A stretch of DNA of 40,049 nt from positions 1-40,049 of the forward strand of contig JACOUX010000002.1 in NCBI GenBank assembly GCA_016177615.1, written 5' to 3'. Source of the DNA: Candidatus Woesearchaeota archaeon (GTDB lineage: Archaea > Nanobdellota > Nanobdellia > Woesearchaeales > GW2011-AR4). The position numbers and the translations under genes are program-made. Of this stretch, positions 16,801 to 17,483 are shown in pieces (position 1 is the stretch's first letter; each line of letters starts with the position of its first letter). The notes under the pieces are model-generated. The model had not been told where the DNA came from and did no database searches. It saw only the letters and a program-made list of their open reading frames with translations.

Positions 16801-17196
16801 ATGAACGGCATAGAACAGATGTACCAGGAAAACATCCTTGACCATTACAAAAACCCAAGGAATAAAGGGATAATCAAGAATCCAAGCGTGCACCATCATG
16901 AGAACAATCCATTGTGCGGCGATGAGTTAGATTTATATTTGGTGATAGATAACCATAAGGTTATTGATGTAAAAATCAATGGTCATGGCTGTGCAATATC
17001 GCAGGCAAGCGCCTCGATGCTTTCAGAGCAGATAAAGGGAAAAGCTCTGGAAGACCTAAAGAAACTGGCAAAAGAAAATATTTTGGAAATGCTTGGGATT
17101 CCGTTAAGCCCGGTCAGATTAAAATGCGCATTGCTTTCATTGGATACGCTGAAAAACAGCATACTGATTTATGAAAAGTATGTAAATAAAAAATAA
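16801..17196 (+). CDS. sufU: Fe-S scaffold/sulfur transfer protein SufU (IscU-like)
   Basis: MYQENILDHYKNPRNKG, NPLCGDELDLYL, GHGCAISQASASMLSEQIKG, RLKCALLSL. Confidence 0.93.
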   Translation: MNGIEQMYQENILDHYKNPRNKGIIKNPSVHHHENNPLCGDELDLYLVIDNHKVIDVKINGHGCAISQASASMLSEQIKGKALEDLKKLAKENILEMLGIPLSPVRLKCALLSLDTLKNSILIYEKYVNKK

Positions 17197-17202
17197 AGAA
17201 AA

Positions 17203-17260
17203 ACGGGTTCAGAATCAGGTTAATGAACCCATTAAGATTGCTTTCCCACAGCCTATAGGT
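17203..17260 (+). pseudogene. tRNA-Leu-like relic or tRNA-derived RNA
   Basis: Shares CAGAATCAGGTTA (17210-17222 vs 17323-17335) and TTGCTT[T/A]CCCACAGCCT (17238-17254 vs 17358-17374) with the adjacent tRNA; anticodon-arm region shortened by ~7 nt. Confidence 0.55.
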
Positions 17261-17312
17261 TGTCTAAATAAGCAAATATATAAAGCTTTTGTTTTTATAT
17301 AAGAGGCGCAGA

Positions 17313-17425
17313 GCCACGGTGGCAGAATCAGGTTATTGCGCTTGTCTCAAAAACAAGTTGCTTACCCACAGCCTTACGGGTTCAAAACTTTTTCGCAAGA
17401 AAGAGTGGTAATCCCGTCCGTGGCG
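17313..17425 (+). tRNA. tRNA-Leu(CAA) with apparent ~25-nt T-loop insertion (putative intron)
   Basis: Acceptor GCCACGG/CCGTGGC; D arm GCAGAATCAGGTTATTGC; anticodon arm CTTGT-CTCAAAA-ACAAG; variable arm GCT-TACCCAC-AGC; T stem ACGGG/CCCGT enclosing 32 nt rather than 7. TATA-like tttttatataag upstream. Confidence 0.82.
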
Positions 17426-17483
17426 CGTAAATTTAATGAGCAGAATATTGATTTATGAGAAGTATGTTAAGAAGGGAAAAAAT

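Follow-up and report, generated by a model that had tools for sequence, protein, structure and literature searches.

In the CTG-clade yeasts, a tRNA-Ser(CAG) reads a leucine codon as a fixed code change, and the Rickettsia palindromic elements are small elements that are kept in frame within protein genes and contain no tRNA gene. Bulge-helix-bulge (BHB) introns in the T arm of archaeal tRNAs are known in Thermoproteales and Caldiarchaeum, and the available portions of the literature on non-canonical archaeal BHB introns make no mention of Woesearchaeota (PMC8450103, PMC3293823, PMC4033280). Position 59/60 is the junction of the permuted tRNAs of Thermofilum pendens and Cyanidioschyzon merolae (PMC3218864), and for the bacterial allo-tRNAs 8/4 or 9/3 acceptor branches (12 bp) are described, with introns not mentioned in the available part of that account (Mukai et al. 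2017, as reviewed in PMC7609411). The open-licence literature on Woesearchaeota tRNA introns yielded nothing beyond one group I intron paper, and no description of the tRNA family reported here was found in it; within that literature, a family of serine-like tRNAs with hydrophobic-amino-acid anticodons is previously undescribed. The gene described below varies on two established themes, T-loop introns and missense-type tRNAs, and comes with a partner sequence of its own.

The gene lies in the window, the whole 40,049-nt stretch that was analysed, which belongs to a draft Woesearchaeota genome of 1.54 Mb (67 contigs, 99% complete). This genome was covered by searches and by selected stretches, and the relatives of its nifU are Candidatus Woesearchaeota MAGs. 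A preliminary description had placed a tRNA-Leu(CAA) with a T-loop insertion at 17313-17425; all arms and the CAA anticodon were found there as described, with 32 nt between the two strands of the T stem, ACGGG/CCCGT, and removal of 25 nt (17387-17411) from these leaves TTCAAAT. The 5' exon (17313..17386, + strand, tRNA positions 1-59) comprises the acceptor strand GCCACGG, the D arm, the anticodon arm CTTGT-CTCAAAA-ACAAG, a long variable arm, and the T stem strand ACGGG followed by TTCAAA. The 25-nt intron at junction 59/60 (17387..17411, +) consists of A, a 7-bp hairpin CTTTTTC-GCAA-GAAAGAG, TGGT, and AA, and the 8-bp hairpin with a GCAA loop that had been reported at 17387-17406 was likewise recovered. 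The 3' exon (17412..17425, +) holds T60, the T stem strand CCCGT, the acceptor strand CCGTGGC, and the discriminator G73 at 17425, with no encoded CCA. A TATA-box-like sequence, ATATATAAAGC (17276..17286, +), was located upstream by inspection, and occupies the same place across the family.

ARAGORN reported no tRNA in the window, and neither did an Rfam scan at the gathering threshold; at a relaxed threshold, the Rfam tRNA model gave 19.8 bits, under the cut-off. A covariance model built from relatives matched exactly 17313-17425. The four stems, acceptor (GCCACGG/CCGTGGC), D, anticodon, and T, are preserved in full, and they covary among relatives, with 97.5% of cells paired versus 42-48% when partner columns were slid, and 98.3% versus 44-50% in the same test on 69 sequences, so that the window tRNA is not a chance match. 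Only 15 Rfam tRNAs scored above the cut-off in this genome despite its 99% completeness, and many of its tRNAs are hidden by introns in the D, anticodon, and T arms.

Comparison with relatives strongly supports the insert as a 25-nt archaeal intron, 17387-17411, between tRNA positions 59 and 60, in line with the non-canonical T-arm intron proposed in the preliminary description: position and motif are common to 48 collected relatives, and excision makes their tRNAs detectable. Nine similar tRNAs of this genome and its genus were aligned with the one in the window, and the common layout is T stem, TTCR, AA, insert, a YGRA-like tetranucleotide, two nucleotides, T, and T stem, which reads as a BHB with TTCR/YGRA as central helix and AA^N and NN^T as bulges. 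Every spliced family member has TTCRAA^...^T, with an excised interval that ends in a YGRA/GGAA-like tetranucleotide plus 2 nt. The central helix is paired in 97% of cells in the family, and slid controls collapse; position 57 follows its intron partner, with G57 opposite C in 12/12 cases and A57 opposite C in 0/59 (71 sequences, 48 + 23). After exact excision, ARAGORN detected 48/48 family tRNAs, and 52/54 including tRNA-Ser controls, versus 6 unspliced and 16 with the excision shifted by 7 nt.

The preliminary description had not arrived at a clean BHB; one can be built at 59/60, though a relaxed one. The family has two 3-nt bulges, a 4-bp helix, and the predicted cuts in the bulges, and the window copy has a relaxed form, ACGGG-TTCA-AA^A...TGGT-AA^T-CCCGT, in which two 3-nt bulges surround a central helix of TTCA (positions 54-57; 17381..17384, +) and TGGT (17406-17409). 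This helix is the weakest in the family, with three of four pairs (A57-U, C56-G, a U55.G wobble, and a U54xU mismatch), and in the minimum-energy fold of the window copy, the hairpin and a symmetric internal loop form in place of a BHB; the BHB of the window copy therefore rests on comparison and not on thermodynamics. Excision of 17387-17411 gives the canonical T loop TTCAAAT, the predicted spliced sequence across it being TTCAAATCCCGT, and the spliced tRNA is called tRNA-Leu(caa) by ARAGORN.

The gene resembles the described archaeal BHB introns in its short T-arm intron, its BHB-like motif, the restoration of a canonical tRNA upon removal, and the intron-rich tRNA set of its genome. As far as the available text of those accounts goes, it differs from the Thermoproteales and Caldiarchaeum cases in its DPANN Woesearchaeota host and in the dominance of 59/60 within a single tRNA family. 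With permuted tRNA genes it shares exactly the same junction and a BHB in the T loop (PMC3218864); unlike in those genes, the halves stand in normal order, and the sequence upstream is a copy of a 5' fragment, not a 3' half. A permuted or split tRNA was rejected on this order of parts, as no 3' half lies upstream of the 5' half. Introns at 59/60 also occur elsewhere in these genomes, in tRNA-Ser, tRNA-Gly(GCC), and others; the T-loop intron of tRNA-Ser(CGA) is absent in genus mates and present at 59/60 in the window genome and others. One tRNA-Ser(CGA) of the window genome (L026, G000:C41:19857-20008) seems to be interrupted twice in its T arm, by an intron close to 53/54 and another at 59/60; the former resembles the D-loop insert of a probable tRNA-Glu (L044), a likeness that suggests intron transposition. 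In another genome, the T-loop insert of tRNA-Ser(CGA) (L022, G002:C4:50689 onward) seemingly holds an entire further tRNA-Ser gene (model match G002:C4:50799-50882).

The remark in the preliminary description that G73 is atypical for leucine was borne out by the four other leucine tRNAs of the window genome, with anticodons CAG (contig C17), GAG (C40), CAA (C43), and TAG (C62), which all have A73 and the V-loop motif TTAGTG (the motif in 4/4, versus 0/48 family members). The CAA and TAG genes carry several introns each, the CAA gene being heavily interrupted, and their anticodon-loop exons were joined by hand and read approximately. The window tRNA has the leucine anticodon CAA with neither A73 nor TTAGTG. 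Its G73, long variable arm, and nearest sequence are those of tRNA-Ser: the closest non-family relative in the genome by BLAST is tRNA-Ser(CGA) (85% over 40 nt), and global comparison scored 31 against the best tRNA-Ser and 14 against the best tRNA-Leu. Across the family, 39/48 members are nearer tRNA-Ser, and 9/48, mostly UAA, score nearer leucine tRNAs. The label tRNA-Leu(CAA) is doubtful on sequence grounds, because of G73, the serine-type body, and the separate A73 leucine tRNAs of the genome, one of them with the same CAA anticodon.

G73 is present in 47/48 collected family members, and the anticodons after splicing are Leu in 39, Ile GAT in 4, Val GAC in 2, Phe GAA in 1, and Asp-type in 2. 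In a second, more distant set, drawn from other families within the order and class and read by ARAGORN or by eye, NUN anticodons were present in 24/24 (a 25th match, a tRNA-Ser, was left out), giving NUN anticodons (A35) in 70/72 overall (46/48 + 24/24). Anticodons differ between species at orthologous loci: GAT, GAC, AAG, and AAG near an acylphosphatase-like gene, GAC, CAG, CAG, and GAG beside a glutamyl-tRNA-synthetase-like gene (neighbour names were read from translations), and AAG, GAG, and CAG at a third locus. Strong model matches (E <= 1e-14, inspected in part) were obtained in 72/292 genomes of the order and in 41/282 genomes of a phylum sample, 38 of these 41 belonging to the same order. 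One locus (L163, G148:C38:800-4300) holds five G73 tRNAs in a row (TAG, GAT, CAA, GAA, CAA), and a partial copy lies upstream of every one of them. In the anticodon loops of L096, L098, and L123 (CCGAGGA), the universal U33 is replaced by C33. L131 (G016:C2:21710-21812), a tRNA-Leu(CAA) of bacterial look that has A73, a T-loop insert, and an upstream partial copy, sits within an open frame whose start is Hint-like.

Within the available description of allo-tRNAs, the family shares with them a long variable arm, diverse non-serine anticodons, and ties to transposon reading frames and polycistrons (PMC7609411), and its sequence features would fit their serine identity; it differs in its 7/5 branch, archaeal host, T-loop intron, almost exclusively NUN anticodons, and partial copy. 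Judged by these features, allo-tRNAs are the nearest functional relatives, but their 8/4 or 9/3 branch is not found here. The tRNA-Ser(CAG) of CTG-clade yeasts is similar as a serine-type tRNA for a leucine codon, whereas the present family is multi-copy, with changing anticodons and with A73 leucine tRNAs alongside.

A degenerate partial copy of the tRNA just upstream (17203..17253, +), missed in the preliminary description, consists of a GGGTTC/GAACCC hairpin around a copy of the D loop, followed by a copy of the variable arm, ATTGCTTTCCCACAGCC, with no T arm. It is preceded by the A-rich tag AAATAAAGAAAAA (17191..17203, +), as in many family members, and its best match is its own tRNA (32, versus a mean of 17 for other tRNAs). 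Most family members lie about 60-100 nt downstream of such a copy, often headed by AAATAAAGAAAAA; it is made up of a hairpin enclosing the D loop, or else the anticodon arm, and a variable-arm copy, with no T arm. In 38/48, the upstream region matches its own tRNA better than any other (mean score 39.4 versus 16.1); the same search found no copy in most tRNA-Ser controls, nor in either of the two A73 leucine tRNAs tested. At orthologous loci with a switched anticodon, the copy bears the new anticodon too. The copy is mostly lacking in a group of members that come from other genera in the order (G290, G250, G281). An anti-tRNA switch, in which copy and tRNA would pair inside one long transcript, was rejected, because there was no energy gain and cross pairs averaged only 4.3 versus 2.9 with swapped partners. 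In a remnant (L020, G014:C28:1687-1759), partial copy and tRNA 3' part are fused, which looks like the outcome of a deletion between the two variable-arm repeats. A conserved promoter-like box, CACTGGACAT...TGAA-TATATAAAG, precedes the copy at L008, L039, L043, L103, and others; it resembles a regulated promoter, is present in many non-genic members, and is absent from the window member.

At least eleven family members lie within long open frames on the sense strand that run through the element uninterrupted by a stop. A single 1026-aa open frame in the window genome (L037, G000:C57:255-3336) contains two tRNA-bearing elements in frame (760-990 and 1370-1610), and a Pfam intein-splicing domain continues on both sides of one of them; among the other host frames are a THUMP-methyltransferase gene (L107) and genes for surface proteins that carry lectin-like domains. 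Like Rickettsia palindromic elements, these are small and in frame inside protein genes; unlike them, they carry a tRNA gene. Homologous units shared without flank similarity (257 nt at 88.7% for L096/L123, 268 nt at 84.7% for L099/L126) occupy unrelated sites, as expected of a mobile element, which points to mobility, and some other loci are orthologous and stable. The unit is approximately 255-320 bp, too short for a transposase of its own to be expected. The window element is placed at the stop codon of nifU, and is flanked by the nifU end, ATTTATGAAAAGTATGT (17167..17183, +), and a second, imperfect copy of this tail, ATTTATGAGAAGTATGT (17451..17467, +). At nifU junctions without the element, nifU is followed directly by sufC (L032 and L033) or another gene lies between (L031), and upstream of purC a different element is present in each of three genomes (L008, L019, L105). 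Inspection by eye for target-site duplications found the nifU tail repeat suggestive but diverged, and no consistent duplication at the other loci.

The reading preferred here, at a probability of roughly 0.6, is that the window gene encodes a T-loop-intron tRNA that is spliced, has a serine-type body with a leucine anticodon, and probably accepts serine as a missense tRNA. A single splicing endonuclease gene was found in the genome; it encodes a 201-aa protein (PF01974 + PF02778) closest to the Nanoarchaeum enzyme, with a plausible predicted Y/H/K triad. This enzyme would recognise the relaxed BHB in the T arm and cut after A59 and before T60, and exon ligation would yield the normal T loop TTCAAAT. 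The mature product would be a long-variable-arm tRNA of serine-type identity with a leucine anticodon, not a regular leucine tRNA. It would most likely be charged with serine by SerRS, since SerRS generally does not read the anticodon, as stated in the available part of the allo-tRNA account (PMC7609411). Use on the ribosome would place serine at some hydrophobic codons, making this a natural missense tRNA, and the tRNA may move as a compact module with its co-evolving truncated copy, which, as a first guess, could act as a small RNA in mimicry of the tRNA or in competition with it.

The same data could be read as an additional tRNA-Leu(CAA) of the ordinary kind that has a T-loop intron, UUG being read as leucine by a lineage whose LeuRS might tolerate G73, and the leucine anticodons of 39/48 members and some UAA members with leucine-like D arms that score nearer leucine tRNAs fit this. 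It is nevertheless unlikely in view of the A73 leucine tRNAs with a common V-loop signal for CAG, GAG, CAA, and TAG in the same genome, the swaps of orthologous loci to Ile and Val anticodons, the occurrence of Phe anticodons, and the proximity of the window tRNA body to tRNA-Ser. A tRNA-like RNA without a decoding function, serving in regulation, as a structural RNA, or as the substrate of some other pathway, its insert removed or not, is a credible if minority alternative: the tightly coupled truncated copy, the placement inside reading frames, C33 in some loops, and the free drift of anticodons would suit it, whereas the tRNA stems and T/D-loop consensus bases are all kept and covary, and these stems with NUN anticodons in 70/72 suggest codon reading or an anticodon-dependent partner.

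That the gene is a pseudogene or a dying mobile-element copy is improbable. The central-helix mismatch and a clearly broken relative in G014 (L020, copy fused to the tRNA 3' half) lean that way, as does the fact that CAA anticodons are redundant in this genome (two with G73, one with A73); a second tRNA-Leu(CAA), which together with a lack of spliced transcript the preliminary description had taken to imply a pseudogene, was indeed found twice, with G73 on contig C57 and with A73 on C43. That implication does not follow, because all four stems of the window tRNA (acceptor, D, anticodon, and T) are unbroken and covary, with compensatory changes in the family in place of uncompensated decay. An assembly artefact or chance, for which the draft state of the genome (67 contigs) might speak, is already refuted by the recurrence of the same structure in dozens of independent genomes. 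Going beyond the preferred missense-tRNA reading, it is conceivable, though unlikely, that Woesearchaeota carry mobile two-RNA modules, in which a T-loop-spliced, serine-accepting tRNA misreads hydrophobic codons and a truncated mimic tracks its anticodon and controls or counteracts it, as a selfish or regulatory system rewriting hydrophobic codons to serine on demand.

Standard finders miss these genes (none in the window and 6 of the unspliced test set were detected by ARAGORN), so that tRNA inventories of these archaea are incomplete, and in-line T-loop introns and permuted tRNA genes are linked by their common 59/60 junction. If the missense-tRNA reading is true, a widespread archaeal lineage keeps many tRNA-Ser-like tRNAs that read Leu, Ile, Val, and Phe codons, coexisting with A73 leucine tRNAs of regular look, and programmed mistranslation, or a non-decoding role of tRNAs, would become directly testable.
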